From positions 1 to 38,059 of the forward strand of contig JALEPQ010000134.1 in NCBI GenBank assembly GCA_022768685.1: 38,059 nucleotides of DNA. The letters are read 5' to 3'. The notes under the pieces were generated by a model. It saw nothing but the letters and a program-made list of their open reading frames with translations, ran no database searches and was not told where the DNA came from. This stretch comes from Spirochaetia bacterium (lineage in GTDB: Bacteria; Spirochaetota; Spirochaetia; Treponematales; Treponemataceae). The position numbers and the translations under genes were made by a program. How positions within the stretch are numbered: the stretch's first letter is position 1; every line of letters starts with the position of its first letter. This document shows, piece by piece, positions 6,511 to 29,416 of the stretch.

Positions 6511-9500
6511 ATGAAGAATAAGCTTACAGGTATTTTATTTTCTTTAGTAATTTTTATAGCAATGATTTCATGTAAAGTTGGTTTAGGGGAAATTGTTGAT
6601 TTAGTTGCGCCTGAAATTACTGTAGAAGAAATGGTAGCTTATAATACTGACGGTTCTATTGCTGATACGGTCAAAGATTTTGGTACTGCAGTGTACACAA
6701 AGAAAAATGTTACTTTTTCAGGAAAGGCAACTGATAATGTTGAAGTTACAAAAGTATATGCTGAAATTAAATGGAATGATTCTGATTACACATATTTAAA
6801 AACAGCCGATATTTCTGGCGAAAAGTGGACTCTTGATATCTCCTTTGAAAAAGAAGGTGCATGCTGGTTAAAAATTGTTGCATGTGATAAGAATGAAAAT
6901 TATGGCACAAAAGCAAATAAAGTTGTGACTCTATTTGTTGATGAAACAGCTCCTAAAGCAGATGACTGGTATATAGATCGCCAGATAAATGGTATTCAAT
7001 ATAAGTTAAAATCACTTAAGGATTTAAAAAATATTCTTGAAGAAGATAAAAATCTTTCAAATCCAAGCAATAAAGATGTGGCTCAAAATGGTGATTTTTT
7101 AATCTGTGCTAGTTTTGATGATGCGGCTGGAATTAAGTCAGGAACTACAAGTATAAGCATTTATGATGAAAATGGAAATAAAGTAGTTTCTGGAATTGAG
7201 GTTGATTCAAGTTCAACTAGTGATTATGCTCCAAAATTTAAGATTGATGGAGAAATCCATAATCTGGCTAAAACTGGAAAGAATTATTATCAAGTACGTT
7301 ATTCTTCTTCAGATATTATTCCAGATTCAAATAGTGTAAAAGATATAGAAGTTTCTTTAGGCTGGTTCTTGTGGTGGCCAGAAAGTGATATGCCAAGATG
7401 TTCTATTACAGATTTAGAAGAGAATGCTTCTTCAATGAGTATTCGCACTGGAGATTCATTAAATATCACAGTATTTGATGATGATGCCTTAAAAGGTGAT
7501 ATTACTTGTAAACTTAAAGGTGATAATCCTTCAAATGATGTTACAGTAACTAAGACTATAACTTCAGATACTGAACGAGAATGTAATATTATAGTAAAAG
7601 CTCCAGATACACCTCAGACAATGACTTTGGAGATAACAGCAAAAGATAAAAATGGAAAGCCTTTGAATACCCAGTTTACGGTCTATGTTACAGATGAATT
7701 TAAACCTAGTGTTATTTTTACATCTCCAGAAAATAATCAAGTACCTGCTGTAAATGGGGATGAGGCAAATATCACATTTGAAGGAATTGCACTTGATAAA
7801 GTTGTTTGTAATTTCCTTGAAATTATTTGGGTTCCAGATTCTGTAACTATAGATGCAACTGCAAAGAAAACTCTTGCACAAAACTGGTTTAACTCAATTG
7901 ATTACTCTAAAAAAACTCCTGTTGCTGATGAAAAGGACTATGAATTTGAAGAAGGAACTGGTGACTATGCTGGTCTAAAAAAATGGTCTGCTAAATTAAA
8001 AGAATCTGAAGAGGAAGAGGGTTTTAAAAAGTATGAATTTAATTTTAATATTCCTTTACTAGAAGAAACTGGTCTAAAATCTGAAGCCAAAAAAGATAAA
8101 TATTTCTTTGCCAGAGTTATTCGCTCAAATGATATTTATAGTGAATCAGAATTAAAGCTTACAGGCGATAATCTTGTTCCAGAAATAAAAGCAATTTCCC
8201 CAGCAGGAAATATGGCCTATATTGATGGTGATTTAGATTTAGTAATTAAATTTAAGGGTGAAAAACAGAGTGGGCTTCCTATGAATATTGAAAAATATTC
8301 TTTAAAAGAAGATGGAAAACCCTTAAATGGAATTTATGATACAAAAGGAGAGTGTTATACATATACAGTTCCTAAAGCTACTTTAGATGAGTATGTTCAA
8401 AATAATAAAAATCCTAAATTCACTTATTATGTAGAAGATGTTCTTGGAAATTCAGCATATGCGGAATACCAGTTTATTATTGATACTCTTCCAATAATTC
8501 AGACTGTAACTTCTTCTGCTTCTGCAAAGTGTAAAAAAGGTGATGAAATTTACATAAACGTATCTTTCTCTAAGCCTATTACTTGTTCAGAGGATGTAAA
8601 ACTAAAGCTTAGAAATATAAAAAACGCTGGTGCTGGTAATGGTGAAAATACTACAGTTTATGCTGATTATAGTTCCGGTTCAGGTTCAACAACATTAATT
8701 TTCAAATATACAGTTAAAGAAGGAGATACTTCTACAGGTCTTGAGGTTTACAATGAAACTGGTGTTGGACCAATTAAAGGTATAGATGAATCTGTAGCTC
8801 ATTTAGCTCAACTTTCCCCAGAAAATAATCTTCAGGCAAAGCGTGCTGGTAATCCTATAACTATTGATGGTGTTACTCCAAATGTAAAAAGCATAGAAAT
8901 TTCAACTGATTCAGGTGCTGAAAATAAGAATAACAATATTTCATATTTAAAAGCTGGCCGAACTGTTACTGCCACTGTAATAACAGATAAAAAAGTTTCT
9001 GTTCAGGGATCTCCTGTTATAGATCTTTATAATGATGCCAACAACAAAAAAATAACATTAAATTGGCAAGGCATTGCTGATGAAGGAACAGGTAGTAAGC
9101 TGACATTTACAAAGAAAGTTACCAGCGATGATGAAGGTTTATATAATAAGAACTATAATTTTGTTAATTCAGATGTCATAAAAGATTCCTATGAAAACTC
9201 CATTTCTGTAGGTTCAGTTACTGCTACGGGAGAAACTTTTATAGTAGATACAACTGCCCCTGGTAAACCAAAAATAAAAAATGCAGATGGTACAGCCGAA
9301 TTAGCTTCTGGTAAATATATGTCAGATGTAACATTTAGTATTTCAACAGATGCTAATGATGCTAAAGGTGTAGCTGAAACTTCTATAAGCAAAATAGAAT
9401 ATTCACTTACAGGAGGAAGTACTTGGGAAATAAATCCTTATAAGTCTCCAGTTACAGTTTCTTCTGATGCTAACCTTGTAGCGCGTGTAACAGATTATGC

Positions 9501-11958
9501 TGGTAATATTTCTGTATATTCTGATGTTGTAAATCTTGAAATTACAAATAAATTCCCAACATTTACGGTGGAATGTACAAACTCAGATGGTAACTATAAA
9601 GCAGGTGATACAATTACATTTAGAGTTTACTTTAAAAGAGAAGTAAATATTGATTCTAACTCAACTGCATCAATTTCTCTTTCAAAAAATGCTGATGCTG
9701 AAACAATTACATCTGGAGCAAAGGCTACAATTACAGCTACATCTAAAGGAAAAAATAGTGTAACTAGTGCAGATTTTACTTATGTAGTTCAAAAAGCAGA
9801 TGAATTTACACTAAAAATTGGAAGAAATGATTTAGCTCTTTCAGGTATTACAGATTTATACGGCTTTACTCAAGCTGGAGCAAAACTCACTGCCGACTTT
9901 TCAAGAGAAGCCGACTATTCAAGAGAAAATGTAAGATGTGATGGTGTTCCTCCAACAATTACAAGAATGGAGCCAAAAGGAGATAAAACAACACAGAATG
10001 GTTTAAATGCCTATTCAGAGGCAAAACAGATTGTTCTTACATTCAGTGAACCAGTTACTGCAGTTAGTGGAAATATCTATTTACGCCAAACCGCAGGTTG
10101 GGCTATTCCACCAATGCTTACTGCAGATGAATTTAATACAGTATTAAGTGCAGTAAATAGTGCAACTATTGATACAAGTAAAACAAATACACTAACAGGT
10201 TCACAAGTTCTTTATATGGATGGACTTGAAGATGCTGAAAACTTGTATAACTCATTGGTAGGTGCAGCACATGACCGTTACCATGGTACAGCACAGTATG
10301 TTGGTCCATATAAAAAGATGACAAATGGAATTAAAGATAACGGAGATCCAGATTTAGATCCTAAATATGTTCTTGATTTTGGAGTAGATATTTGGGACTC
10401 TGCAAAATCTACAAAGAAAAACTTTGGTAAGACTTTTGAACCAAATTACAGAAAGAAAAGTGCCTCTGGTAATTATATTGGTGAAAATGCATACAATACC
10501 TATCACCATAAATATTATGCTGGTTGGGTAAATGTTCTTACTGGTTCTGACATTAATCCTCATGAAATAACAACAGATACTATTAGATATGTCCTTGAAC
10601 AGGCTCACTATCATGAACGTTACATGGCTGTAAATTCATCGTACGTAACAATTTCTGATGATAGTACAACAGTAACCTTGAATTTCCCTAATGATATTTT
10701 TGGAAACACTAATTTGCCTGCAGGTCGTGAATGGGAACTTGTTATTGAAGAAGGAACCTTCATGGATGCCAGTGGAAATAAGTTTGGTTATGATTATTCT
10801 GGAGATACTTTGCAGAAAACAACTGGCGATATTGTTCAAATAGCAAACAAAGGAACTACTGAAGGTAAATGGAAAAGAAAAAGAGACACTGCAGATAAAC
10901 CGTTAGTTCTTATTCAAGATGGAAACAATGTAGCATTTATGTCTGCTGGTGTTGCAACACCTGTAATTCGTGTAGACAGATATAGTTATGGATTAGGAAT
11001 TTTCCAGCCTAAAGATATTAGTGACGGAAAATTTGTATCTGAAATGATAAATTCTATCTCTACGGAAACAACTAAGGTTACAAGTCTTGATTCGTATTTA
11101 CAGACAGGAAGCACAGCTCCTACTGCAAAAGTTGCTGTAAAGATTGACTGTGAAACTAAAAATGCAACTATTAAATATGCTAGAAAGACAGCTGAAACAA
11201 ATACTTGTGTGGATAAAGAAACTCAACCTGAAAGAACAAATGGTAGTTCCGTAGTAACAAAATCTTCTTCAATACAGCTTGATGTTCCTACAAGTAACAC
11301 AGATGCATCTGATAATGACCACAAAGGAGAAGGTAATTCAAATGGAGCAACTAGGGCCATTTTCCTGGGAGGAAACGGAGATTATACAAAGGCCTATAGA
11401 GAATATATCTATGCTGATGCGACTGTGGGTGAAATTTCTTCTGCCCCAGCTAAAGAGGGAATTTTCCAAACTGTTGTTTGTATAAATCATCCACTACATA
11501 ATAAAGCTTATAGTAGAACTTCAGATGATGTATATACTTTTGGTGCAGGACAGCAGGTCGTAAATATTCATGGATATACTACAAAGTCAATTACTCCTTA
11601 TCCATTAAGAGACCAGCTAGTAGCGTCTGCTTATATGAGACAAACATATCAATCTCCATCACCAAATAATTTTAACTATTACTGGATTAGTTATGAAACC
11701 TTAACGGATGCAACATTCTCAATGTATGTATATGGTCAAAATGCTTATTGGGGCTACCATAACTATGGTACTTATAACTCACTTAACTGGGGAGATTGGT
11801 CAAAGGATTACGGAGTATTTAAGGCTGGAGAATATACATTGTGTACAGGAATGGAAAGCTATGTTTCAACTTGGTATGATTCTGATAAAAAATATAATAG
11901 TGCCGGGGAAGAAACTAATAGGAATTCAAAAAAATTAAGTGAATGGAGAAAGGACTAA
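6511..11958 (+). CDS. Giant Ig-like repeat lipoprotein 1
   Basis: This 1815-residue protein has a lipoprotein signal peptide (lipid Cys at residue 21, ...AMISC), then KVGLGEIVDLVAPEI, the signature shared with the two following genes. Beta-sandwich modules follow: N-terminal Ig-like domains, a FLWWPESDMP motif near residue 286, several ...KAGDTI...-type adhesin repeats (about 672-910 and 1023-1143), an OmpL47-like repeat (about 913-1010, EYSLTGGSTWE), an SbsA/Big_5-like domain (1147-1440) interrupted by a ~200-residue His/Tyr-rich insert, a chitobiase-C-like segment (about 1480-1590) and a C-terminal domain shared with gene 2. The start at M6 of the track ORF is set by GGAG. Expected in the outer membrane or periplasm, possibly surface exposed. 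No enzyme motif is seen. It is translationally close to gene 2 (3-nt gap). Confidence 0.88.
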   Translation: MKNKLTGILFSLVIFIAMISCKVGLGEIVDLVAPEITVEEMVAYNTDGSIADTVKDFGTAVYTKKNVTFSGKATDNVEVTKVYAEIKWNDSDYTYLKTADISGEKWTLDISFEKEGACWLKIVACDKNENYGTKANKVVTLFVDETAPKADDWYIDRQINGIQYKLKSLKDLKNILEEDKNLSNPSNKDVAQNGDFLICASFDDAAGIKSGTTSISIYDENGNKVVSGIEVDSSSTSDYAPKFKIDGEIHNLAKTGKNYYQVRYSSSDIIPDSNSVKDIEVSLGWFLWWPESDMPRCSITDLEENASSMSIRTGDSLNITVFDDDALKGDITCKLKGDNPSNDVTVTKTITSDTERECNIIVKAPDTPQTMTLEITAKDKNGKPLNTQFTVYVTDEFKPSVIFTSPENNQVPAVNGDEANITFEGIALDKVVCNFLEIIWVPDSVTIDATAKKTLAQNWFNSIDYSKKTPVADEKDYEFEEGTGDYAGLKKWSAKLKESEEEEGFKKYEFNFNIPLLEETGLKSEAKKDKYFFARVIRSNDIYSESELKLTGDNLVPEIKAISPAGNMAYIDGDLDLVIKFKGEKQSGLPMNIEKYSLKEDGKPLNGIYDTKGECYTYTVPKATLDEYVQNNKNPKFTYYVEDVLGNSAYAEYQFIIDTLPIIQTVTSSASAKCKKGDEIYINVSFSKPITCSEDVKLKLRNIKNAGAGNGENTTVYADYSSGSGSTTLIFKYTVKEGDTSTGLEVYNETGVGPIKGIDESVAHLAQLSPENNLQAKRAGNPITIDGVTPNVKSIEISTDSGAENKNNNISYLKAGRTVTATVITDKKVSVQGSPVIDLYNDANNKKITLNWQGIADEGTGSKLTFTKKVTSDDEGLYNKNYNFVNSDVIKDSYENSISVGSVTATGETFIVDTTAPGKPKIKNADGTAELASGKYMSDVTFSISTDANDAKGVAETSISKIEYSLTGGSTWEINPYKSPVTVSSDANLVARVTDYAGNISVYSDVVNLEITNKFPTFTVECTNSDGNYKAGDTITFRVYFKREVNIDSNSTASISLSKNADAETITSGAKATITATSKGKNSVTSADFTYVVQKADEFTLKIGRNDLALSGITDLYGFTQAGAKLTADFSREADYSRENVRCDGVPPTITRMEPKGDKTTQNGLNAYSEAKQIVLTFSEPVTAVSGNIYLRQTAGWAIPPMLTADEFNTVLSAVNSATIDTSKTNTLTGSQVLYMDGLEDAENLYNSLVGAAHDRYHGTAQYVGPYKKMTNGIKDNGDPDLDPKYVLDFGVDIWDSAKSTKKNFGKTFEPNYRKKSASGNYIGENAYNTYHHKYYAGWVNVLTGSDINPHEITTDTIRYVLEQAHYHERYMAVNSSYVTISDDSTTVTLNFPNDIFGNTNLPAGREWELVIEEGTFMDASGNKFGYDYSGDTLQKTTGDIVQIANKGTTEGKWKRKRDTADKPLVLIQDGNNVAFMSAGVATPVIRVDRYSYGLGIFQPKDISDGKFVSEMINSISTETTKVTSLDSYLQTGSTAPTAKVAVKIDCETKNATIKYARKTAETNTCVDKETQPERTNGSSVVTKSSSIQLDVPTSNTDASDNDHKGEGNSNGATRAIFLGGNGDYTKAYREYIYADATVGEISSAPAKEGIFQTVVCINHPLHNKAYSRTSDDVYTFGAGQQVVNIHGYTTKSITPYPLRDQLVASAYMRQTYQSPSPNNFNYYWISYETLTDATFSMYVYGQNAYWGYHNYGTYNSLNWGDWSKDYGVFKAGEYTLCTGMESYVSTWYDSDKKYNSAGEETNRNSKKLSEWRKD

Positions 11959-11961
11959 GTT

Positions 11962-14900
11962 ATGAATAAGATAATAAAAAATAAATTAATATATGTATCA
12001 ACTTTTTTAATCAGTTTTCTTCTTTTTTCTTCTTGTATTGTAGGTCTTGGGCCTGCAATTGACCTTATGGCACCAGAAGTAACACTTGATTCTCATAGTA
12101 ATAATGACTCTGTACCTGAATCTTTTGTGTTATATGGAACCGCTACAGATAATGAGGCTGTTTCAAAAATAACAATCAGCTTTGAAGATGCTGAAATGTA
12201 TTACCAGATTGTACCGGGTGAATCAACCTGGCAGAAAAAAAATCAAAAAACTGGTGATTGGAAGGCCATTCAAAATGATTCAAATAACTATTGTAAACAG
12301 GTTAATGGAACATGGAACTGGTCTGTAACAATTGATACAGATGATAAAACTTCTGCAAAAACAGATTCTACCTTTACTTTTACTATCATTGTTTATGATA
12401 AGCTTGGAAACTCAACTAAAAAATCTAAGGTGGACTGTTCTGTAGTTCTTGATACTTCAAATCCTAGTGTAAGTATTTATAAGCCAGAGCTTTTTGAAGG
12501 TACATATGAAAGTATAGTTGCTTCAACATCAGGCTATGAAACAAAAGATGGAAATGTTATTAGTCGTCTTTTAAATGGAGATATTACTTTTTCTGGAAGA
12601 ATCAGTAATTCAGTTTCTTTCAAAGGTATGAAAATTGAATTTGATAACGGAAAACTTAAATCTGGTATAAATAAAACAACAGGATTATCTGCAGTAACTT
12701 CTATTGAAGATATTTTAAATCTTGGAACAGAATCAAGTTTAGGAGATTCAACCGCCCCTACAGTTTATTATTCAAAATTAATTGAAAAGTCAGATTTAAA
12801 AGAATGGACTCTTACAGTTTCTCCAGAAGAATGGGCAACTTCAGAAAGTGGAATTGCTAACGGATTAAATACTGGAAAACACATTATTCGTGTAGTAACT
12901 ACAGCCTTAAGTTCTTCTGGTTCCTGGGAAAGAAAAGTTGTTGGATACTTTTTGTGGTATCCAGAAGCAGATGTGCCTTGGCTTACAGTTTCTGTTGGTG
13001 ATGTGTCTTTTACAGATTCTGAATCTGTTGGGACAGAATGCTATCCGGGTTCAAATATTTCTGGAATTGCTCAAGATGATGATGAAATTCAAAGCTTTGT
13101 AACAAGAGTATATAAATTGTCAGGAAGTAGTACATTTACTTTATATTCTGCAACTGATTATCAAAATCCTGTTACTCATACAATTTCTGTTGATAGTCCA
13201 AAATATGCTGCCTGGACTATGAAAGTTCCAACTGAAACAGGTGTTTATAAGCTTGAAATGGAATTAAAAGATAAAACAGGAAATTCAGTTATTGAAGAAC
13301 GATATTTTAAATCTTCTGATGTAGGTGCTCCTAACATTACTATAACAAGTCCTGTAAATGATACTTATGCAATTACAAATGCAGAGGGAAATATAGCTTT
13401 TAAAGCTTCTGCGGTAGATAATACTAAATTGGAAAGCTTTGCTTTTGTATGGCTTAATCCTAAAAACAGTTCTGATCCAAATAATAAGATTAAATATCTT
13501 ACAGGAACAGATGCTAACTGGGCAGAAGCAACTGAAGATGGTTGGTCTGATACGGCTGGGAATAAAATTTTTAAAATTGAATTGAATGACGATGGAAGAA
13601 CTGCATACCTAGATAAGACTTACAATCTTTATGAGAATTTTGGAATAGATGGTGAAGAGGTACTTCTTGGAACACAAGATTTTATATTCCGTGCTTCTGA
13701 TGGAGTTAACACTTGTGTAACAACATTAACTTTATCTGGAGATTCTCTTACACCAGAAGTAAGTTTTAATAATATATCTTTTGGTTCTTCTACGCCACAA
13801 TCATTAGAAAACAATATTCCGTCTTTTGAAAAATCTGTAACTAGTGAAAAAGCTACAATTACAGGAACCTGGAGCGATAAGTTTACTCCAAACTTAAATA
13901 ACTTAGAAAAAATTAAGATATTTACCGTAAATTGGGGTGGTTCTGATTATGATTTAGAAAAAGACAACATAAAAGCAGATGGTACCTGGGAAGTAAAAAT
14001 TAAAGCTCCAGCAGGTGGTGGAACTATTACTGCAAAAATACAAGATTATGCAGGAAATTCTAAAACTGTACAGGCTGCTGTAAATATTGAAACTGCTGAT
14101 TTATCACTTTCAAGAATTGGTTGTGAAAATGATGATGGTGCCTATAAAGCAGGTAGTGAAATTATTGTTACATTAAATTTCTCTAAAAATACTGATGTAG
14201 AATTAGGTTCAGAATTAAAACTTCCTTATCTTGTATTAAATAATGGTGGAAAAGCTGTATACATTAATGAAACAGCTTCTCAAATTATAACAACAGGAAG
14301 TGGTTCTACTATTCATAGATATAAATATATTGTTTCTGAAAGTGATAGAGATGTTGAAAATCTTGGAGTTTCTGGAATTGTATTAAATGGGGCAGTATGG
14401 AAAGATTCAAAAGTAGAAAATGAATTTACTTTCTTTAAAGAAACTTCTAATGCTGATGGTTCTAGAGACATAAATCTTCAAGATGGAAATAGCCTGGAAA
14501 AAACTAGAGCTATAAAAATAGATAATACAAAACCAGCTGTTAGTTCAATAAATGTGCTTTCTTCTGGTTCTTCAGGAAATTATTATAAGGAAGGAGATTC
14601 TATTCTTCTTTTGTTGAATTTTACTGAAAATGTAACTGTTACAAACTATTCTAGTTTGAGCTTAAACTTTGCTCATGGTAAAAGTTCAGATTTAAACAGT
14701 GCTACACTATCTGGTTCAAATGGTATTATTTTTACTCATAAAGTAGAAGCTGGTGAAAATACATCACAATTTAAATTAAATGATTCATCACCATTTATAA
14801 ACACTGGAGTTATTGTAACAGATTCTGCTGGTAATGATTTAGCTTGGGATAGTATAACTACAGGCAATATTACTATTACAAATTTTGACAAAGTAATAAT

Positions 14901-17106: not shown

Positions 17107-17131
17107 AATTATAAAAACATAAAATTAACTT

Positions 17132-17170
17132 AAAATCCCCCAAAAGTTTTTTTTTGGGGGATTTTTCTTT
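17132..17170 (+). terminator. Strong rho-independent terminator after giant gene 2
   Basis: AAAATCCCCCAAAA (17132-17145) pairs perfectly over 14 bp with TTTTGGGGGATTTT (17152-17165), with a 6-nt loop and a T-rich tail TTTTTCTTTT. It begins 25 bp after the stop codon and separates gene 2 from gene 3. Confidence 0.9.
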
Positions 17171-17183
17171 TATTTTATTCCCT

Positions 17184-17264
17184 ATGGAGCTAGATTCTCT
17201 TTTAGAGCAGATAAAAAAATCACACGTTAAAAATTATTCTAAACTTTCCAAAGATCCTCTGTGA
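17184..17264 (+). other. Short 26-codon ORF, possible gene remnant
   Basis: ATG at 17184 opens MELDSLLEQIKKSH... and ends at a TGA made by the first bases of the palindromic element that begins at 17259. The composition looks like an ordinary helical protein N-terminus. No Shine-Dalgarno is seen and it follows a terminator. It may be the front of a gene cut by insertion of the palindrome, or chance. Confidence 0.2.
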
Positions 17265-17441: not shown

Positions 17442-17482
17442 AAAGGTAAGAGTTTATATTTCATAATATATTGGGGTATTTT

Positions 17483-20400
17483 ATGAATAACTATTTTAAA
17501 AAGTTTAACTTAATTTTATGTTTAAGTTTAACAGGATTATTTACATTTTCCTGTAGAATTGGTCTTGGAGCATCAGTAGATACAGAACCTCCAAAGATTT
17601 CAATTGAATCACCTGCTGCCAGTGCAGTTATTAGGGACTCCTTTGCTTTAAAGGGTAATGTTTCTGATGATAAGGGGATTAAATCTATTGAAGCTGTTTT
17701 TACTTCTACAGATTCAAAAGGCTATTCAAGAACTTTTACTGGCGACGTAACTGATGAATCTTGGAAGTGTATTATTTCTGATATGCCAGATGGTAGTTTT
17801 GAAGTAACTGTTACTGCCACTGACCATAGTAATCACACTACAACTGCATCCCGCCAGTTTACAATTGATAATACTCCACCTTTAGTAGTTTTACAGCGTC
17901 CTTCTTCTAAGGCAACTGCTGATAATTCCTCTACAGATTCTTACGGCCAGCTTTTAACTCTTGAAGGTCAGGCTGCTGATGATAATGATGTAGATCATAT
18001 TGATGTTTCTATTTTCAAGGATGCTGCACAGACTCAGCTTTTAAAAACTGTAACTCTAAAGAATGTTCCTCCAACTATTTCTTTGGATGTTGCACAGTTT
18101 GTTGATGGAGTGGAAAATGACTATTCAACTATTTACGGAACAACTTCAAAAATTGATGATACACGTTATTTTTATCTTTCGTTAAAAGTTTATGATGGTG
18201 CAAAACGCTATCCGGTTGATGGAGAGCGTTCTGCTGATGATGATAATGGAAATGCAACAACTTCTTATTATCTTTACAGTGATCTTTCTGGTTCTGTTTT
18301 AAGTAATTATAAGGTTACAGATGTTTACCACATGCTAAGTGGGTTTTATTCCGATTCTAATGTTAGTAATTCTGTAAAACAGCAGCTTGAATCAGTTTCA
18401 ATTAAGGAATCAAGATTTTCATTAAATCCAGAAAACAGTCCTACTTATACTGTTACAGGAAGAAGCTGGCTAACAGTTGAAAAAGATTCTGAAGGCAACA
18501 TTAGTCCAACAGAAGGTCTTGATAAAATAACAAAAGATTACTATTTAACAAATGACACAGCTCAGCTTGTAGTAGAAGTATCACCAGGTCTTGATGGTTC
18601 ATCTATTCTCCCAGAGACAATTGGTGTTTATTTATTAAAAACTAATAATGTTGGTGAACCTGAAAATAACGCAGAAAAAATCTGGATTGTAAAACCAGAA
18701 ACTGCTTGGGGTGATTATCCTGCAGAAACTGCTCCTTTGTGGTCAGATAGAAAATCTATGAGTGGTTCATCTTACAAGTTCTCAAGCGAAAAAAATATTT
18801 CTGCTTCTGAATACGGATTAAAAATTAATGCTTGCTACAGAATTTATGTCGTAGGTAAGGATAATGCAGGAAATCAGTTAAATAATACTGATACAAAATT
18901 CTGTGGTTTCTATCTTGCTTCAAGTGGTGCAACTATGAGTTATAAGCTCATGGAGCAGGAAGATTATGTTACAACACAGGGAACTAAAAATAAGGTAAAT
19001 ACAATCTTAAAAATCCGTCCAACAGATAAAAATAAATTCTATGCTTACAGAATGTTTTCATCTTCAATTCCTAGAACCATTAGTAAGGATATGTTCTATG
19101 ACAATGGAAAATTAATAACAGGTGTAACAGAACTTGAGATTGAAGGAATTCCTGACTCTTACGAAGGAGCAGATTCATCTTCTTATAGTGCTATTTATTA
19201 TGACAACGATATTCCTCTTGAATATGTAGATGATAATGATAAATCTACTGTAAAAAAATATTTAATGTATCTTATTTTGGATTATAAACTTGGTGGAAGT
19301 GAAGAAACTGATGTTAACTTACAAAATACGTACGATTCATATTTAGCTGTAAAAATTGATGACATTAAGCCTACAACAACAATCAAGCAGCCAGTTGCTT
19401 CTTACAAGGATGATACAAAATATATAGATGATACTTCTTTTGATTTCCGTCTTGAATCAAAGGATAGTGATTCTGGAATTGAAAAACTTGAATATGTAAT
19501 CACAAAATCCTCTACAGCACCTGCTGATGGTGATGCTGCTTGGATAAGTACAGATGATTACACTGGTGGAGTTTATGATTTTTCAAGAAATCTTATTGAG
19601 GGTGAAAATTCTCTTGCAGAAGGTAAATGGTATTTATATGCAAAATCAACTGATGCTGTTGGTTTAGTTTCTGATACAGTCAGCACATGGTTCAATGTTG
19701 ATAAAGCTGCGCCTGCTTTGACAGTTTCTGATCTTACTGAAGATTCTAAAAATCTTTTAAATCAGACTATTACAATAGATGGGAATAATAAATATCTTAC
19801 AATTACAGGAACTATAGATGATTCAAATGCTCTTCACGGAACTGAATCTCTTGTAATTAAAGTTGATGATGTAAATAAGGTAAGTACAAAAATTGATGTA
19901 GCAAATGATCATACTGCAACTGCACAAGAACCTTGGACATATACAAAATCAACAAAAACCTGGACTTACAAGCTTCCTGTAGGAGATGTTCCCGGAACTC
20001 TTAAAGAAAATTCAGATGTAAAACTTGAAGTAATTGCAAAGGATATTGTAAACAGAAAGGTTTCTAGAGAATTTACACTCTATTATGATACTCATAAACC
20101 TATTGCCAGCATTTCTTCTCCAGATACAGATTATTCTGAGACACAATTTATTAGTGCAGATAAATTTGATTTTAAGATTGATGCTTCAGATTCAACAGGT
20201 TCTGGAATAAAAACTATAAGTTATGTCTTCAGCAGATCTTCTACAAAAGAAGGAATTTCAGAAACTTGGGTAGATGATAATTCTTACATAAGTGGCGATA
20301 AGTACATTACAAAAGAACTTGTTTCAGGAAATGGAACTCCAGAAAATGCAGCACAACTTACAGAAGGTAAGTGGTACTTATACGTAAAAGCAACTGATAA

Positions 20401-23400
20401 AGTAGGATTAACATCTGATACAATATGCAGGGCCTTCAATGTAGATAAATCAACTCCAGACTTAAGGGTAAAAGTTGGTGATAAACAACTTTCCGAAGAT
20501 TCTACTAACGCATTCTATGAAGAAATCTCTAATAAGGGAACTGAAAATGAAGCCTTAGTTCTTACTGGAACGGTTTCAGATACAAATGCCCTTTCAAAAC
20601 TTGAAATTTCAGTAGATGGACAGAATCCAGTTTCAATTACACCAAATAAAGGAACTTGGGAATATAATCTTCGTGTAGGACCAGAAGATGGTACCTTACA
20701 AAAGGATGCTTCTATTTCCGTAAATTTAACTGCAACAGATGCAGTTAGTCGCAAAACATCAAAGGATTACATTGTTTATTATGATACAAAAGCTCCAACT
20801 CTTGATGTTTCAAGTCCTGCAGAAAATATTTCTGTAGATGCAGGAGCTTATAAAATTAAGGGTAATGTAGTTGATGATGGATTTGGACTTACAACTCTTG
20901 TTTTTGAATTAAGAGAACGTGGAAAAACTACAGTCCTAAAAGACGAAAATAATAAGGCCATATCAGGAACTTCAACTTATGATGCGACAACAAAGAAGTG
21001 GAGTGGTTCAGGTAATTATCCTCTTACAGTTCGTGGTGGACAGTGGTATTTCTCAGAAACATTCGGAAGCACAACAGAATCTGCAATTCCTTTAGGAACA
21101 AAAGAAGGTTCAATTGATTTATATGTAAAGGCAACAGAAAACAGTGCTGTAACTTCACGTGCAAAAATCACAGAAAAAACAGTACCATTCTATTTTGACA
21201 GTGCACTTCCTGGTGTAAATGAAGATGGAATTCAGGCAAAAGGTAGAACTACAAATACAAACTTTACATTAAAAGGAAAAGTTTGGGATTCAAATGAAGT
21301 CGCAAGCGTAAGCGTAAGCTACGATGAAAATGGCATTACAAAAACTTTAACATCTACAGGTGACTCTCCAAAGGTTACACTAGGTTCTGTTGTAACAGCA
21401 AAAACTGAAGCTACAGGAGCAGCTTGGTCATGTCCATTTGAAATTACTTCTTCACGTATTAACGGAACAAAAGACGGTGAACTTTCTGATGGTACATACA
21501 CCTTTACAATTACAGCAACAGATGCAGCCGGAAAAACAGCAACTGTTCAGCGTACTGTAACTGTAGATACAATAAAACCTGAAATGGGAACTAATGTTGT
21601 AGATGGTTCTCAGGGTACAAAAATAGGTGATAATTACTGGTTTAGTACAAATCAGGTTCCAATTTTAATCAGAGCAGAAGATGATACAAATGGAACTGGA
21701 ATTTCTAAAGTAGAATATTCATTAAGTTCAGACTTTGCTTCATCTGCAGCTTTAGCTACAAGTAGTTTTAAATTATCTGGTGAATCATCTAAAAAAGAAG
21801 GATGGGCAGGAACTGTAACTTGTTCAAGGGAGGGTGCAAATACAATTTATGTTAGAGCTACAGATACAGCAGGAAACAAGATTGAAAAATCTATTACTGC
21901 TTATGTAGATACAAAATCACCTGCATTCACTTGTACAAATTTAAATACCACAATTACAGGGACTCAGGTTTCTACAGAAAGTGAACTGATTGTTAATGGA
22001 ACGACAGATATTACAATTATCCTTTCAGATGTTGCAGATGATGAAACTAGTGGGGAAGGTACTTTTGCTGGTTTATACACGTCTGCTACAGAAAATGCTG
22101 CTGTCCAGATTGTGGAATTAGGTTCTACAAAAGTAGACATTAAGTCAACTTATGATTCAGATAGTGAAAAATATATTCTTACAATTCCAAAAGAACAGCA
22201 GACAAAAGCAAATTCGGGAAGTGTAAAAGTTCAAATAACAGATAGGGTTGGTCATTCTACAACTACAGAAGCATTTAAAATGTCAGTAGATACAAGTGCA
22301 CCAACAATAAAAATTACTTCCCCAACAGCAGGTAAGGAAGTAAATAAAGTAATAACAGTTTCTGGTGAAGCTAGTGATACAAATAAGGTTAGCCTTGTAA
22401 CTGTAACTGCTAAGGGAAATTCAAAGACAAAATCTTATACATTTACCCCTAAAACAGCTGCAGAAGATGTTGAATGGTCAGTTAATATTGATACAACATA
22501 TTTTTATAATGATAAAGAAACAGAAAATTTGGTTCTGTCTGTAACAGCAAAAGATTCTTTGGGCAATGAAACTATAGCAGCAAATGAAGTAACAAGAACA
22601 ATTAAAATCAATCAGAATCTAGATCGCCCTAAAGTTGTAATTTCAAATCTTGATGGTTCTGGAACAACTTTAATGTACGGAAACAGAGCTTCTATTTCTG
22701 GTACTGTTGAAGATGATGATGGAATTGAAAATTTTGCTGTAGTATCGTCTGCAATTACAGATTTTGCTACTGGAACTAAATCAAAATTCCTTGCTGAAAA
22801 TTCAAAACCATATTCGGTGAGTGATGGTTCACAAATTACATTAAATATCCTCAATTCAAAGACAACAGACAGTCAGGATGATATTGATAATTTGTACAAA
22901 ATAACTCCTGCAAGAGATTCTCGTATTTACAAATATTATGTAAAAACTGAGGCTGAAATAGATTATTACGATGTTACAATTTATGAACCTGAAACAGGAA
23001 TCTGGACATTCTATCCGCATGATGCATCTGATGCTAATAAGTCTATCTATTTTGTAATTCAGGATACAGATTCTACTAATGTAACCACTTCAGAAGGCTC
23101 AACAACATATAATTATTTCTATACAACTTCAACTAATCAGCTTTACAATCCTAAAGTGCAGTTTAAATCTGGAACAGTTGGTGATAATAAAACAGTAATT
23201 ACATATCTTTCTGACAGTAAATCTCCAGAATTTGTTTCTGCAAGTATGAACTATAAGGCCACTTCTAGTGCAAAAACAGAAGATGGAACAGAAAGCAATG
23301 TAAATCAATCAACAATTGTTGGTGGAAACAGAAAATTTGTTCAGTTTGTTATTACATGTTCAGATGCTGCTGGAATTTCTAGAATGCAGCTAAAAGTTGT

Positions 23401-26400
23401 AGATTCTACTAATGCAGAAAAACAAAACTTAAAAATTAATACAGACGCTGAAAGAGCTGTTAATGATGGAACACTAATAAATGGAATTTGGACAACTCCA
23501 TACATTGATGTTTCAGATTTTGCAAAAGGTGGTGCCCGTGGAGTTCTGACTTTCTATGATGGAAGTGGGCTTTATAATAATACAACAATTAACTTTACAA
23601 TTGATAATGACGCTCCTTCGTATTCAGGAATTTCTCCGTTGTCAAATGATGAAGTTACAGGTCAGATTACAATAACTGGTAATACAACAGATATTGGTGA
23701 TGCAGGTGTAGTTTCTACAAGATGGATTATTCCAACTTATAAAACATGGACATATACAAAGGATGCAACTGCAACTTACGAAGAAGGTCACTTTGTAAAA
23801 GATGGTGAAAATTATAAGGCTTATACAAACGAAACTACAGGTGATACATATTCAAGAACAGGCGCTACACAGTATACAGATGCAGAGATTAAGGCAATGA
23901 ATGCTTTAGTAAAAGATTCTAGTCCTGTTTATGCTTATGGTCACTATTCGTTAAATTCTTCTGGAAAATATGAGACTGCTATTGGTAAAACAAGCGGAGA
24001 TACATATTCAAGCCAATTAAATGAAATGGATCAGGGCTCAACAGCTACAAGCTGGACAAAAATCTTCACAGAAACAGAAATTAAGTCTTATGATAAAGAT
24101 GATTTATCAAATACTTATGTAGTTTCAAAAGATGAAGCCGCTGGTGATATTTATCTTGTTCCTTTCTACATTGTTTCAGAAGATGCAGTAGGAAATATTT
24201 CGATTAAGAAGCATGTAATCAGACATAATCCTGATGCAAATATTCCTCGTGTAACTTCAATTTCTCCAAATGAAGATGATTATGATGAAATTAAGGATTC
24301 AAATGGAGTTGTAACTGGAAGACAGAATTATGTAACAATGGGTGGTACAATCAAAATAAATGGTACTGCTCAAGATAATGTAAGCATAAGTAAAGTATTC
24401 TTACAGATTGATCCAAATCCAACTTTGACTTCTGGAAAATATGTTCCAAATTTTGACTCTACAGATAAATCAACAGTTGCAGGATACACAAGTACTGGTA
24501 CTTCAAAGGTTTATACAATCACAGATAAATCAAACATTACAGGATTATCTGATGATAAAAAAGATAAGATTGCAGCTGCATGGTGGGGTATTGAAGTAGA
24601 AAAAACAACTTCTTGGAATAAAGAAATTAACAAATATGGTGAACTTAATCCTTCTGAAAATGGTTTAAAATATGTTTGTATTCGTGCATGTGCATTAGAC
24701 AATGAAGGAAATATTGGTGCTTGGTGTTCTCCAATTACAATTGCAATTGATATGGGAACTCCAAAAATTGGTGAACATGGGCAGAGATTGTATAAGTACA
24801 ATTCAACAGGCTTTAATAGTAATAGCCCAGAATTAAATATTGAGGCTCGTATCGAAACTTACTCTGCTGATAAATATTTAAGAGGAAATTGGTACTTTGT
24901 AGTTTCAGTAGAAGATGAAAGTGGAATTAGCGAATGTGAAGTTTACAAAGATGGTGGACTTATAAATACATCAGACTATACTGCAAAATCTGTTGGAACT
25001 GGTGATTCTGGATGGGGTACAAGAAGTGGAAAGTTACTCTATATTCCAGTTGATAATTCTTCAACAACAGTAACTTATACAGTTTATGCAAAAGATGCTG
25101 ATGGAAAAACATCTGAAAAGGATTTTACATTCAATATTGATAATGATGCACCAATTATTTCTTCTGTAAAGGGTAATTCAAAATCATTATTAAGTTCACC
25201 AGACGCAATTTCTAACTCAAATTATAGGTACCAGTTGGAAAGTGCAATTGCAGATAATAATTCTGGATTGGATATGGTTGCTTTCTATTTTGAAAGAGCA
25301 ACAGGAACTACAGATATTGACGGTGTTTATGATGTAATGCTGCCACACAATAATACTCGTGCAAACAGAATTACTGGAGCAGCTTCAAAAACAGTTGTTT
25401 CTGGTGCAACACCAATTACATTCAAGGGATTAGAATTAACTGGGACAACACGTTCTACAGATAAAACTGTAGTTCATGCATCTTTGGTGAATAATGCAAA
25501 TATCAGAACCGGTGGTTTAATTTTCATTGGTGGTATGTATCACCGAATTGATGGTTTTGCAAAGGCTACTGGTACAATTACCTTAGATGAAGCTGTGGCA
25601 GTTTCAGAAACAAATGTATTCTTACCATATGCTCAGGTAATTGATAATGCAGATAAGTGGAACTGGAATGAAACTACTCATGTTTATGATAAAGTAACAG
25701 ATGATGATGATAACATGGTTGAATCTCTTACAGGTACAAAATCTGGAGGATATTCTGCAGAAGCTTCATTTGATTCGTCAAATATTTACGATGGTCCAAT
25801 AAATCTTGTTATTGTAGCATTTGATAAAGCTGGAAATACAAGTGGAAGAATTATAGAAACATCAGTTCAGAATAATAGACCACAAGTTTCGAAAATTTGG
25901 TTAGGTACAGATTTAACCGGTGATGGAAAATATGCAGATTCAGAATTTGAAGAATATGATGTAGGTCATGTAAGCGGAACAACTTCATCAGCTGTAATTA
26001 CAACAGCAGGCTATAAAGAAGTTCGCTATAACGAAGATACACATGCATATTACACAGTAAATTCTTCTCGTGGTGCTTTTACTGTAAAAGATAAACTCGT
26101 AGTAGTACCAGAATTTGTTGGTGGAAACGGAGATATTCAGATGGTATTTAATCCATCTGCAAGTGACACAGAAATAAATAAAACTGAAGAAACTGCTGCA
26201 AACAGAATAAAAACAACAATATTCACTTCTTCTCATGTACCAACAACTACAAGTGGCGTAGATGTAAATGAAACAATTAGAATAGGAACAAAAGCTTATA
26301 TACTTCAGAATAATTCAGAAACTGCAACAACTAAACTTCCTGCTGATTCAGCATCTGCAAAAGTTTCATTTACATTCTGGGATTCAACAGATGGTCTTGA

Positions 26401-29400
26401 ATGTGGTTCAACTTCACAGTGGGCTTATGTAAGAATTACAGACTTAGCTGTAGATTGTGTTGATGACGTAGCTCCAAAAGTAATTATTGACCCATTTAAG
26501 TGGACTGGAAGAGGATTTGATGTGGTAAAGAATAGTGATGGTACTGTAAAAGGCTATAGTCCACTAAATAATCTTTATTATTCGGTAAATAACGCTAACT
26601 GGAAAACAGCTGGTACTGGAGGAACAGAAGCCTCTCCAACAAATTCAGAAGTAAACGGACATATTGAACTTGTAAATGATATTGATACGACTAAAGTTAC
26701 TGCTGATAACTTTGGAACAAACGATCCTAAAGTTTCTGGAAAAATTGTAGTTCGAGGTACAGCTTACGATGATGTACGTCTTGATACACTTTGGGTTTCT
26801 TTTGCAGGAATGACACTGGCAAATAAACTTACAAATACAGTAAGTATTAAAACAGCTGCAAATGCTATGCCGACACTTTCAACAAATGGTGAATATACTG
26901 TTGGAGCAGTTACTTATTACCAGGCTGCAAAATATACAACAGCTTCTTCAACTTGGAGTACAGCAACTGCAACAATTGGAACTGAGGGATGGGAATTTAA
27001 GATTGTAGAAGATGGAGTAAATGATAGTAACAGTTTCTTTAATCAAAAGGGACATCGCGTAACGTGGGAACTTTATCTTGATACTGCAAAAATACCTAAT
27101 GTTGCTCAAAAAGATGTAAAAGTAGCAGTATTAGCAGTAGATGGAAGAGGACAATTACAGTCTAGTACAAGTGTAGAAGGAACAGCTTCCGCTTCAAATG
27201 CAACTAATTACAATGCAGTTTGTGTTCCTTCATATCAGATGGATGTTGTACCTTATATTACAAGTGTGGATACATACATATATGGAAAATTAAAGAGTAG
27301 TATTAGAAGTGCTTACTCAAGAACATCATTAGGAAATTATATAGTTCGTAATAATGAAGAAATTACAATACATGGTTTCAACTTAGGAAGTTCTACAGTT
27401 GATCCTGTAATTACTAATGGTACAAAAGGCTCTGGAAAGAGTACGTATTATGTAAATGGAAATCTAGTTGTTTCAACTGCAAATATGACTTCTGGTAATT
27501 TTGCACTTAAAGTTGGAGTTTCTGGAAGTGAAGTGGATTTATTCAATAATTACAGTAATAACAACGCAAAAGGATCTTTCACAGGAACAATGAATGATTC
27601 TACTAGTTATGACAATAAAAATACTTATGGTTATAACAGAATGCCAAATAATTCAAGTAACAATCTTCTTACAGATGATATTATATTTGACGTATGGCAG
27701 TTCAATAGTGCTGCAGCAAAACCTGTAAGTGGAAAACTTTCAGAACCAGTAATGAGAATTAATCCAAAAGATGGCAGAATTGGTTTTGCATTTGTAAGTG
27801 GTCCGGCAGATTTTTCAATGTCTCAAATGTTTCAGGGACAATCAAATTCATACACAAGATTCCAGCATAACTATGCTACATTCAATAATGTAAGTTTTGT
27901 TTATGATTCAAATGGTATTGCTCATGGTACAACAACTGGTTTGGATACCTATCCAGAAGATACTAATTATAATTACACTTTAGCAGGTAGATTTACTTAC
28001 CAAAACAGCAAATGGGGAACAGGTACTGTTAATAGTATGAATGATAATTATGATGGTACCAATAAAGTCCGTCTTGAAGCTATAGGAATTCCGGGAAATA
28101 ACAACACTGATAATAAAGGTAATATCAGTATTATTGTAAACGGAACTAAACCAATTAGTTATACTATGACAGAAACAAGATTTGCATCTCCAACAATAGC
28201 TACTACTACTCATGGAACAGCAATGAATCAAACATCTGTTTATCTTGCATATTATGATGATATTCAAAAACAGATAAGATTTAGATATGCAACTTTAGGT
28301 GATAGTAAAGGCAATTACAATAATTTTAATGATAATGGTAAAGATAATAAACGCATTGCAATTAGTAATTATAACCCCGACGGAGCTGGAGATAATAATA
28401 ATGCAAAACGTGTATTTGAATCTACTACAAATGTATTTAGTTTAATTGCAGGAAAAGACTGGCAGCAAACTAGAAATTCTGCACAAGATGGCTCAGATAC
28501 AAATTATAAATATACAAGAGTTACTTCTGCTGCTGAAAATAATATATCGCTTGCTGCCGATGGTTATTATCTTGATACTGGTTCTGTTGCTGGTAAATAT
28601 GTTGCAATTGATGCATTAGCTGGTACTGCAAGTAATGGAACTGTTACTTCCTCAAATGCAGCTTCCGGTGATACTGTAGTTGCAGTCTGGTTTGATGGAA
28701 CAAACTGTAATTACTCATATATTGTAAATCCAACTTCAGGAAATGATTTAAATGCTTACAGAACAACAATAGCAGATGGTTATTGGTCAAAACCTAAAGT
28801 GATTTTTAGTGAAGGTGGAGAATACTGTAATGTTAAGTTTGGTCCAGATGGATCAGTTCATATTGCAGCTAATGTTGATGGTGTACTTAAATACGCTTAT
28901 TTAAAAGATCCTGCAGCAATCTCAAGCTATGTTGAATCAACAGATTCTGTTGTTATAGATTCATATTCAAATACAGGTACACAGATTACAATTGATGTTG
29001 GTTATGATAAAACAAGAACAAGTGTAGTTGTCCCATATATTGGATACTATAATGAATCTGCAAAACGAGCTGCCGTAGCTCATCCTGTAATAAAGAGCAC
29101 AACAACAAGTGGAACAACAACTTATTCTGTAAATTATAAAGCTCAGGGTACAAGCGATTCTGTTTATACAGGAAACTGGGAAATTTCTATTGTTCCAACT
29201 GCAAGTGATCTTTCTGATGCATTAAATACAACAGATAAGGTAAGTATTGGATTATGGAAAACAACAACTGGCGTAATAAAGAATTCTACGACAGGGTCAT
29301 CATCAGCTTCTAATACAAGTGGAAACTGTTGGGGTAATGGAACCGCTTATCCTGTATTAGGATATTCAGTTGTTACAACTTCTGGTACCGCAATAGAAAC

Positions 29401-29416
29401 TGCACAGATGAAATAA
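17483..29416 (+). CDS. Giant 3977-residue Ig-like repeat lipoprotein 3
   Basis: The largest gene here encodes a lipoprotein (Cys24 in ...LFTFSC, then RIGLGASVDTEPPKI). Most of its length is a string of bacterial Ig-like modules marked by repeated 'DTxxPxxxxxSP' joins and 'xATDxxGN' ends. A ~240-residue module is duplicated at about residues 626-1100. Insertions include two 'Y..GH...GKY...SGDTYS' units (about 2098-2177) and an EF-hand-like loop DLTGDGKYADSE (2810-2821). Near the end an IPT/TIG-like domain (about 3256-3370, EEITIHGFNLG) leads to a C-terminal part (about 3410-3977) with repeated 'xVYLAYYDD...FRYA'-type strands resembling a beta-propeller. ATG 17483 is preferred to the track's TTG because GGGG precedes it. 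A terminator follows. Location: probably outer membrane, facing out or into the periplasm (inference). Confidence 0.88.
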   Translation: MNNYFKKFNLILCLSLTGLFTFSCRIGLGASVDTEPPKISIESPAASAVIRDSFALKGNVSDDKGIKSIEAVFTSTDSKGYSRTFTGDVTDESWKCIISDMPDGSFEVTVTATDHSNHTTTASRQFTIDNTPPLVVLQRPSSKATADNSSTDSYGQLLTLEGQAADDNDVDHIDVSIFKDAAQTQLLKTVTLKNVPPTISLDVAQFVDGVENDYSTIYGTTSKIDDTRYFYLSLKVYDGAKRYPVDGERSADDDNGNATTSYYLYSDLSGSVLSNYKVTDVYHMLSGFYSDSNVSNSVKQQLESVSIKESRFSLNPENSPTYTVTGRSWLTVEKDSEGNISPTEGLDKITKDYYLTNDTAQLVVEVSPGLDGSSILPETIGVYLLKTNNVGEPENNAEKIWIVKPETAWGDYPAETAPLWSDRKSMSGSSYKFSSEKNISASEYGLKINACYRIYVVGKDNAGNQLNNTDTKFCGFYLASSGATMSYKLMEQEDYVTTQGTKNKVNTILKIRPTDKNKFYAYRMFSSSIPRTISKDMFYDNGKLITGVTELEIEGIPDSYEGADSSSYSAIYYDNDIPLEYVDDNDKSTVKKYLMYLILDYKLGGSEETDVNLQNTYDSYLAVKIDDIKPTTTIKQPVASYKDDTKYIDDTSFDFRLESKDSDSGIEKLEYVITKSSTAPADGDAAWISTDDYTGGVYDFSRNLIEGENSLAEGKWYLYAKSTDAVGLVSDTVSTWFNVDKAAPALTVSDLTEDSKNLLNQTITIDGNNKYLTITGTIDDSNALHGTESLVIKVDDVNKVSTKIDVANDHTATAQEPWTYTKSTKTWTYKLPVGDVPGTLKENSDVKLEVIAKDIVNRKVSREFTLYYDTHKPIASISSPDTDYSETQFISADKFDFKIDASDSTGSGIKTISYVFSRSSTKEGISETWVDDNSYISGDKYITKELVSGNGTPENAAQLTEGKWYLYVKATDKVGLTSDTICRAFNVDKSTPDLRVKVGDKQLSEDSTNAFYEEISNKGTENEALVLTGTVSDTNALSKLEISVDGQNPVSITPNKGTWEYNLRVGPEDGTLQKDASISVNLTATDAVSRKTSKDYIVYYDTKAPTLDVSSPAENISVDAGAYKIKGNVVDDGFGLTTLVFELRERGKTTVLKDENNKAISGTSTYDATTKKWSGSGNYPLTVRGGQWYFSETFGSTTESAIPLGTKEGSIDLYVKATENSAVTSRAKITEKTVPFYFDSALPGVNEDGIQAKGRTTNTNFTLKGKVWDSNEVASVSVSYDENGITKTLTSTGDSPKVTLGSVVTAKTEATGAAWSCPFEITSSRINGTKDGELSDGTYTFTITATDAAGKTATVQRTVTVDTIKPEMGTNVVDGSQGTKIGDNYWFSTNQVPILIRAEDDTNGTGISKVEYSLSSDFASSAALATSSFKLSGESSKKEGWAGTVTCSREGANTIYVRATDTAGNKIEKSITAYVDTKSPAFTCTNLNTTITGTQVSTESELIVNGTTDITIILSDVADDETSGEGTFAGLYTSATENAAVQIVELGSTKVDIKSTYDSDSEKYILTIPKEQQTKANSGSVKVQITDRVGHSTTTEAFKMSVDTSAPTIKITSPTAGKEVNKVITVSGEASDTNKVSLVTVTAKGNSKTKSYTFTPKTAAEDVEWSVNIDTTYFYNDKETENLVLSVTAKDSLGNETIAANEVTRTIKINQNLDRPKVVISNLDGSGTTLMYGNRASISGTVEDDDGIENFAVVSSAITDFATGTKSKFLAENSKPYSVSDGSQITLNILNSKTTDSQDDIDNLYKITPARDSRIYKYYVKTEAEIDYYDVTIYEPETGIWTFYPHDASDANKSIYFVIQDTDSTNVTTSEGSTTYNYFYTTSTNQLYNPKVQFKSGTVGDNKTVITYLSDSKSPEFVSASMNYKATSSAKTEDGTESNVNQSTIVGGNRKFVQFVITCSDAAGISRMQLKVVDSTNAEKQNLKINTDAERAVNDGTLINGIWTTPYIDVSDFAKGGARGVLTFYDGSGLYNNTTINFTIDNDAPSYSGISPLSNDEVTGQITITGNTTDIGDAGVVSTRWIIPTYKTWTYTKDATATYEEGHFVKDGENYKAYTNETTGDTYSRTGATQYTDAEIKAMNALVKDSSPVYAYGHYSLNSSGKYETAIGKTSGDTYSSQLNEMDQGSTATSWTKIFTETEIKSYDKDDLSNTYVVSKDEAAGDIYLVPFYIVSEDAVGNISIKKHVIRHNPDANIPRVTSISPNEDDYDEIKDSNGVVTGRQNYVTMGGTIKINGTAQDNVSISKVFLQIDPNPTLTSGKYVPNFDSTDKSTVAGYTSTGTSKVYTITDKSNITGLSDDKKDKIAAAWWGIEVEKTTSWNKEINKYGELNPSENGLKYVCIRACALDNEGNIGAWCSPITIAIDMGTPKIGEHGQRLYKYNSTGFNSNSPELNIEARIETYSADKYLRGNWYFVVSVEDESGISECEVYKDGGLINTSDYTAKSVGTGDSGWGTRSGKLLYIPVDNSSTTVTYTVYAKDADGKTSEKDFTFNIDNDAPIISSVKGNSKSLLSSPDAISNSNYRYQLESAIADNNSGLDMVAFYFERATGTTDIDGVYDVMLPHNNTRANRITGAASKTVVSGATPITFKGLELTGTTRSTDKTVVHASLVNNANIRTGGLIFIGGMYHRIDGFAKATGTITLDEAVAVSETNVFLPYAQVIDNADKWNWNETTHVYDKVTDDDDNMVESLTGTKSGGYSAEASFDSSNIYDGPINLVIVAFDKAGNTSGRIIETSVQNNRPQVSKIWLGTDLTGDGKYADSEFEEYDVGHVSGTTSSAVITTAGYKEVRYNEDTHAYYTVNSSRGAFTVKDKLVVVPEFVGGNGDIQMVFNPSASDTEINKTEETAANRIKTTIFTSSHVPTTTSGVDVNETIRIGTKAYILQNNSETATTKLPADSASAKVSFTFWDSTDGLECGSTSQWAYVRITDLAVDCVDDVAPKVIIDPFKWTGRGFDVVKNSDGTVKGYSPLNNLYYSVNNANWKTAGTGGTEASPTNSEVNGHIELVNDIDTTKVTADNFGTNDPKVSGKIVVRGTAYDDVRLDTLWVSFAGMTLANKLTNTVSIKTAANAMPTLSTNGEYTVGAVTYYQAAKYTTASSTWSTATATIGTEGWEFKIVEDGVNDSNSFFNQKGHRVTWELYLDTAKIPNVAQKDVKVAVLAVDGRGQLQSSTSVEGTASASNATNYNAVCVPSYQMDVVPYITSVDTYIYGKLKSSIRSAYSRTSLGNYIVRNNEEITIHGFNLGSSTVDPVITNGTKGSGKSTYYVNGNLVVSTANMTSGNFALKVGVSGSEVDLFNNYSNNNAKGSFTGTMNDSTSYDNKNTYGYNRMPNNSSNNLLTDDIIFDVWQFNSAAAKPVSGKLSEPVMRINPKDGRIGFAFVSGPADFSMSQMFQGQSNSYTRFQHNYATFNNVSFVYDSNGIAHGTTTGLDTYPEDTNYNYTLAGRFTYQNSKWGTGTVNSMNDNYDGTNKVRLEAIGIPGNNNTDNKGNISIIVNGTKPISYTMTETRFASPTIATTTHGTAMNQTSVYLAYYDDIQKQIRFRYATLGDSKGNYNNFNDNGKDNKRIAISNYNPDGAGDNNNAKRVFESTTNVFSLIAGKDWQQTRNSAQDGSDTNYKYTRVTSAAENNISLAADGYYLDTGSVAGKYVAIDALAGTASNGTVTSSNAASGDTVVAVWFDGTNCNYSYIVNPTSGNDLNAYRTTIADGYWSKPKVIFSEGGEYCNVKFGPDGSVHIAANVDGVLKYAYLKDPAAISSYVESTDSVVIDSYSNTGTQITIDVGYDKTRTSVVVPYIGYYNESAKRAAVAHPVIKSTTTSGTTTYSVNYKAQGTSDSVYTGNWEISIVPTASDLSDALNTTDKVSIGLWKTTTGVIKNSTTGSSSASNTSGNCWGNGTAYPVLGYSVVTTSGTAIETAQMK
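19358..20780 (+). repeat. Duplicated ~240-residue two-domain module in giant gene 3
   Basis: The segment beginning DIKPTTTIKQP and the one beginning DTHKPIASISSP run in parallel: both have '...FDF+.++.DS.SGI+.+.YV..+SS', then 'LAEGKWYLYAKSTDAVGL' against 'LTEGKWYLYVKATDKVGL', 'FNVDK', and an 'LTGT+.D.NAL' domain ending in a Tyr-Tyr-Asp-Thr join. They are similar at protein level and diverged in DNA, so this is an old duplication. Confidence 0.7.
23773..24012 (+). repeat. Two CBM5/12-like short repeats inserted in giant gene 3
   Basis: YEEGHFVKDGENYKAY...GDTYSR and YAYGHYSLNSSGKYETA...GDTYSS are two copies of a ~50-residue unit, each followed by a '+TE/DAEIK' segment. The Y..G..V..G..Y pattern recalls carbohydrate-binding modules of the chitin-binding type, but the usual tryptophans are sparse. 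They interrupt an Ig-like domain whose strands resume at YLVPFYIVSEDAVGN. Confidence 0.4.

Follow-up and report, generated by a model that had tools for sequence, protein, structure and literature searches.

The three giant genes in the window (the whole 38,059-nucleotide stretch of DNA analysed here) belong to a widespread family of very large lipoproteins that spans the class Spirochaetia, far beyond this genome, and that is apparently undescribed: our search of the open literature found no description of giant or Ig-like Treponema lipoproteins of this kind. A G-L-G behind the lipidated cysteine marks the family, and the long members are linked to a neighbouring gene, fl3. We propose, with a probability of about 0.55, that the giants are lipid-anchored and most likely surface-displayed rods, in which a GLG linker would carry an Ig stalk with a glycan-binding tip and fl3 would cooperate with the long type.

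Three giant lipoprotein genes in the window

The genes and their N-terminal motifs are laid out as follows.

6496–11958, + strand: P1, short-type giant lipoprotein, 1815 aa from the ATG at 6511 (intact open frame)
6571–6612, + strand: P1 motif CKVGLGEIVDLVAP, from the translation (Cys codon at 6571)
11962–17106, + strand: P2, short-type giant lipoprotein, 1714 aa (intact open frame, 3 nt past P1)
12034–12075, + strand: P2 motif CIVGLGPAIDLMAP, from the translation (Cys codon at 12034)
17132–17165, + strand: intrinsic terminator, a 15-bp stem and then a T-rich tail, closing the P1–P2 unit
17483–29416, + strand: P3, long-type giant lipoprotein, 3977 aa from the ATG at 17483 (frame open from the TTG at 17471)
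17552–17593, + strand: P3 motif CRIGLGASVDTEPP, from the translation (Cys codon at 17552; GLG ahead of the first Ig domain)

The earlier note had described three proteins of 1815, 1714 and 3977 residues, each with a lipoprotein signal and, directly behind it, C-x-[VI]-G-L-G-x3-D-x3-P; the translations agree for P1, P2 and P3, whose signals include a lipobox. In each, a hydrophobic signal ends in S-C and the motif follows (...MIS/CKVGLGEIVDLVAP, ...FSS/CIVGLGPAIDLMAP and ...TFS/CRIGLGASVDTEPP). Judged by sequence, all three are bacterial lipoproteins (signal peptidase II), with a hydrophobic signal and a lipobox whose cysteine is at +1. Nine sites in the same genome (92% complete) fit C-x-x-G-[LF]-G; a lipobox and a giant gene are found at P1–P3 only.

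The genes had also been taken for a cluster of three. P1 and P2 do form an operon, but P3 is a separate unit beyond the strong terminator at 17132–17165 (the region holds three terminator-like sites versus 0.2 expected). The order of a P1-like and then a P2-like gene recurs at L061, L064, L103 and L127. The trio is not a conserved cluster, because the long type lies elsewhere in genomes G014 and G018, both of which have P1–P2. P1 and P2 are homologous over much of their length (28–35% identity in blocks); P3 has the N-terminal region alone in common with them, at 22–24% identity. The P1 orthologue in G014 matches at 39% over 6–1790. The C-terminal regions of P1 and P2 (window 10436–11955 and 16500–17103) seem to end in a common domain with W/Y-W-[IV]-S-[WY]-[DE] and PGE, preceded in both by CHB_HEX_C-like stretches.

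The motif marks a family of giants across the Spirochaetia

The pattern C-x-x-G-L-G-x3-D-x3-P was matched at least once in 73 of 118 same-genus genomes, its reversed control in none. The sites in these genomes often come several in tandem, 10–14 kb apart. In a phylum set the pattern was matched in 31 of 296 genomes, and the true matches were restricted to the class Spirochaetia. Three lipobox-free matches were discarded as unrelated chance hits: L053, and L123 and L124 (one phylum-level and one class-level match), which are without signal peptide.

Whole-gene matches with a lipobox are giants and fall into two size classes, of about 1250–1806 aa and 2364–4851 aa. The residue at −1 of the lipid cysteine is S, A, T, G or N, with S in 60 of 73 cases. 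The few shorter closed frames (186–644 aa) include contig-end cases and split genes such as L138 and L173, where the remainder of the giant continues as a second frame. In L138 (Brucepastera), L173 and L136 the giant is spread over two frames, of which the short upstream one carries the GLG part; a frameshift, a pseudogene or phase variation may account for these split genes.

We also ran a looser search in nine genomes, for a lipobox and C-x-[VI]-G-[LF]-G with the D and P dropped. Of the 10 sites it returned, nine belong to giants and the tenth lacks a lipobox; no short GLG lipoprotein turned up. The proposal of a giant-lipoprotein family marked by the GLG thus holds: the motif is neither confined to the three genes of the window nor equally common on short lipoproteins.

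The GLG keeps a fixed distance to the first Ig domain

The table of 73 matches was not used for conservation, since the search pattern forces its G, L, G, D and P. We therefore used a pattern-free set, in which relatives were recruited by their C-terminal region: 43 readable N-termini, near-identical paralogues included, from Treponema, Brucepastera and several other Spirochaetia families. All 43 carry [GAS]LG-x3-[DN]-x3-P. The first position of the xLG is G in 38, A in three and S in two; the L and the second G are invariant. The spacing from xLG to P is 11 residues in every case, while the distance from the cysteine to the xLG is 2 residues (22 cases), 4 (12), 5 (4) or 6 (5). Thus, the motif keeps a fixed register with the first Ig domain and not with the lipid anchor.

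The earlier note had suggested that the GLG may be a sorting or anchoring signal. A code counted from the cysteine can be set aside because the xLG distance varies and positions +2 to +4 differ across the class (CEI, CKQN, CENP, CDL), so that no fixed-position rule of the Lol type (+2/+3/+4) fits the 43 N-termini. The lipoprotein export signal of Bacteroidetes consists of charged residues of the K-(D/E)2 type immediately behind the cysteine; such a stretch is absent from the 43 N-termini, where 2–6 mixed residues precede the xLG. Protein-side recognition of the GLG and a plain hinge are both possible.

When family models were compared with the N-termini, the Big_7 match began exactly at the motif P and DUF4625 at the motif V. 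Inside the giants there are 262 occurrences of [VIF]Dxx[AP]P and none of GLGxx[VI]D. The VDxxxP half is thus an ordinary Ig-module edge. The GLG itself is outside the predicted Ig fold: in the P3 N-terminal model the mean pLDDT is 64 at residues 1–10 and 96 at residues 11–20, and the Big_7 match sets in at residue 14. In the Ig domain that follows, the top residue has a mean frequency of 0.46 and reaches at least 95% at 8 of 101 positions; the GLG is conserved far better.

Ig-like modules had been assigned to all three proteins. Domain-model matches support them well in P3 and P2 and only weakly in P1. The giants match Big_7, Big_13 and Big_3 and are predicted to adopt an Ig fold; the first domain is Ig-like, with Big_7 matching 29 of 33 N-termini. 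In Foldseek, the N-terminal domains have the giant adhesin SiiE and an ice-binding adhesin of 1.5 MDa among their neighbours. With E values up to 1 allowed, Big_2 (PF02368) matched none of P1–P3 and was absent among the families matched by the 33 N-termini.

The long type is predicted to end in a propeller

Two features were defined in the C-terminal region of P3.

27134–27685, + strand: conserved pre-propeller region (DVVPYIT ... GFNL), from sequence conservation
27686–29413, + strand: predicted C-terminal seven-bladed beta-propeller, from a structure model (pTM 0.83); the tail IETAQMK is the closing strand

Long-type giants have about 760 C-terminal residues in common, with no Pfam match of note. 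An AlphaFold2 model of this region of P3, built from 41 sequences, had a pTM of 0.83 and placed the propeller over about residues 185–760. PLL/PHL chains headed both the Foldseek and the VIA-align lists (Z 20–22, rmsd 3.0–3.2 over ~300 residues), and unrelated propellers such as WD40 chains were also near (Z 18–20); propellers shaped like this one serve many functions. Sequence identity to the PLL lectins is 8–10%, and a PDB profile search returned no PLL. The seven-bladed fold predicted for the tip is well supported, and the tip may act as a lectin.

Three other ideas on the C-termini were dropped. The tail ETAQMK was considered as a C-terminal sorting signal, but it forms the last propeller strand (model residues 751–759) and other members end differently. 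A sialidase would carry Asp boxes (S-x-D-x-G-x-T-W), and P3 has none. The possibility that the C-termini are targets of a diversity-generating retroelement, prompted by PMC8144416, found no support in the sequences seen.

fl3 is linked to the long-type giants

One gene next to P3 was identified by neighbour clustering and a profile match.

29567–30775, + strand: fl3, a solute-binding-protein-like lipoprotein, conserved neighbour of long-type giants

Neighbour clustering found fl3 next to a long-type giant at 17 loci, among them the window and loci of Brucepastera, of Spirochaeta sp. UBA5339 and of a further genus in the family. It lies on either side of the giant and in either orientation, at times with a gap of only 9–16 nt. 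We scored the 296-genome phylum set for strong fl3 matches (E < 1e-30) and for giants by their C-terminus. All 32 genomes with a strong match also had a giant C-terminus, and none of the 237 genomes that lack this C-terminus gave a strong match. Within the window's own taxonomic family, fl3 was present in 30 of 40 giant-bearing and 0 of 9 giant-free genomes; Fisher values for the association overstate independence because the species are related. fl3 is not indispensable, since 27 giant-bearing genomes of the phylum set are without a strong match. It is nearly always single-copy and in some genomes is remote from the giants. A weak match adjoins the giant in G270, a genome of another family, which suggests a diverged form of fl3 there. 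Giant-family members of 2100–2830 aa (CKQNIGLGGTIDIERP, CKPSLGGQVDILPP) occur without fl3 in L202–L206 (genus g15, complete genomes of 2.8–2.9 Mb), and G188 (genus g16, a 1.1-Mb genome) has neither giants nor fl3.

The fl3 profile matched ABC sugar-binding proteins (6pql, 2hq0, MsmE) over the N-terminal part of these proteins, with E 8e-9; single members are subthreshold in Pfam and the family is also below the NCBIfam cut-offs. Among the window genes no ABC permease or ATPase gene adjoins fl3, and the genes downstream encode, by reading, an MgtC-like protein, a dicarboxylate-symporter-like carrier and Tex. fl3 is anchored by a membrane helix or as a lipoprotein. Most homologues have an apparent N-terminal membrane helix and would probably sit in the inner membrane, facing the periplasm.

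Some paralogues share N-termini and differ in stalk and tip

Same-genome paralogues can be near-identical over their first 400 residues and only 25–30% alike in stalk and tip. N-terminal identity reaches 100% in G390 (L209/L210), 99/89% in G056 (L084/L085) and 82/78% in G255; in G110 it is 68–80% versus 25–46% in stalk and tip. The paralogues L205 and L090–L092 show the same contrast between the N-terminal ~400 aa and the rest. In G390, within a single 3.37-Mb contig, a 2269-bp block of 98.9% identity runs from the gene start to an abrupt end. The reverse holds in two other genomes, whose paralogues are more alike in their C-terminal parts. By sequence, the pattern resembles an exchange of anchors and tips through duplication or gene conversion.

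Location of the giants and role of the GLG

In the arrangement we propose, the lipidated cysteine would fix the N-terminus in the outer membrane, and a short flexible linker with the invariant [G]LG would connect this anchor to the long Ig-like stalk. The far end would bear a recognition domain: the propeller of lectin-like fold in P3 and a different C-terminal domain in P1 and P2. The most likely job would be to bind glycans or glycan-coated surfaces away from the cell, either for attachment to feed particles, mucus or partner cells or for carbohydrate capture. Membrane-held fl3 would work together with the long-type giant. We infer the surface location from the length of the proteins and their variable tips. 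These can be set against an arrangement in which the giants are periplasmic scaffolds linking the outer membrane, the cell wall or the periplasmic flagella. A probable inner-membrane fl3, facing the periplasm in most homologues, would suit such a scaffold as its periplasmic partner. However, thousands of Ig residues would, if extended, exceed the width of the periplasm many times, a constant N-terminus with a variable tip among paralogues resembles surface recognition, and the absence of giants from many related genomes argues against a core structure. We consider a periplasmic scaffold unlikely.

For surface-displayed rods, the GLG linker would have been retained as an anchor–stalk connector or as a cue for export machinery, not as a code counted from the cysteine. 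We give roughly even odds to an inherited hinge or cap ahead of the first Ig domain that descent and stalk mechanics have preserved, with no recognition involved. The rigid 11-residue register, held while the cysteine distance varies, is consistent with a hinge, as are the adjoining VDxxxP, which is part of the Ig family models, and a first domain common to all family members. Yet the GLG is conserved above nearly all Ig positions, and the first ten residues have low model confidence, so that no predicted fold contact accounts for it. Its near-invariance outside the Ig fold would be explained if the GLG were an export or sorting signal, read by an outer membrane flippase, a Lol component or fl3, that sends the giants to the surface. 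Among the lipoprotein types tested no other carries it, and N-terminal cassettes are kept identical in some paralogue pairs. For spirochaetes, a review reports that no Slam is present and postulates an as yet unknown flippase (PMC7857515). Still, we doubt a sorting signal: its distance from the cysteine ranges from 2 to 6 residues, a machine or adaptor would have very few clients in the many genomes with 1–4 giants, and no candidate machine was identified. Our confidences in a hinge and in a sorting signal overlap with the overall figure, because both are accounts of the GLG within one picture. It is quite improbable that the GLG is the recognition element of a dedicated spirochaetal export of giant lipoproteins, with fl3 as periplasmic partner and a recombining N-terminal cassette whose stalks and lectin tips are swapped.

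Comparison with known systems

Leptospira LigA and LigB are lipid-anchored, adhesin-like lipoproteins with tandem Ig-like domains of the Big_2 type. The giants are likewise spirochaetal lipoproteins with an N-terminal lipid anchor and tandem Ig-like domains, but these are of the Big_7, Big_13 and Big_3 types, in proteins of 1250–4850 aa with a GLG linker, a predicted propeller tip and an fl3 neighbour. The giant RTX, SiiE and ice-binding adhesins resemble the proposed rods in bearing a binding domain at the end of a very long Ig-type stalk; they depend on type I systems for secretion and retention and are not lipidated at a conserved N-terminus. The Photorhabdus PLL/PHL lectins, the nearest fold of the P3 C-terminal domain, are free-standing lectins, whereas the P3 propeller would be the tip of a giant lipoprotein. 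fl3 resembles ABC sugar-binding proteins in their N-terminal part but is tied to giants and not to permease or ATPase neighbours. In the Bacteroidetes LES, the Borrelia tether and the Lol +2/+3 rules, location signals are read from or near the lipid cysteine; unlike these, the GLG keeps its register with the first Ig domain. The predicted P3-type propeller tip and fl3 as a conserved neighbour are new, and neither reaches a Pfam cut-off.

A class-wide family of very large spirochaete lipoproteins, from the rumen, the gut and other lineages, is thereby defined from sequence. For the transfer of spirochaete lipoproteins to the surface no Slam has been found (PMC7857515), and a one-line motif that selects a coherent set of clients makes this transfer open to test. 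The lectin-like tips also offer a direct hypothesis for the attachment of commensal treponemes to plant particles or mucus.

Other genes flanking the giants

The commonest flanking gene belongs to cluster fl1 (~290 aa, transposase/nuclease-like by reading), found at L069, L079, L098 and ~25 other loci; its abundance next to the giants may point to mobility. L061, L116 and L138, from three genera, share two TPR-like genes near the giants (clusters fl15 and fl5).
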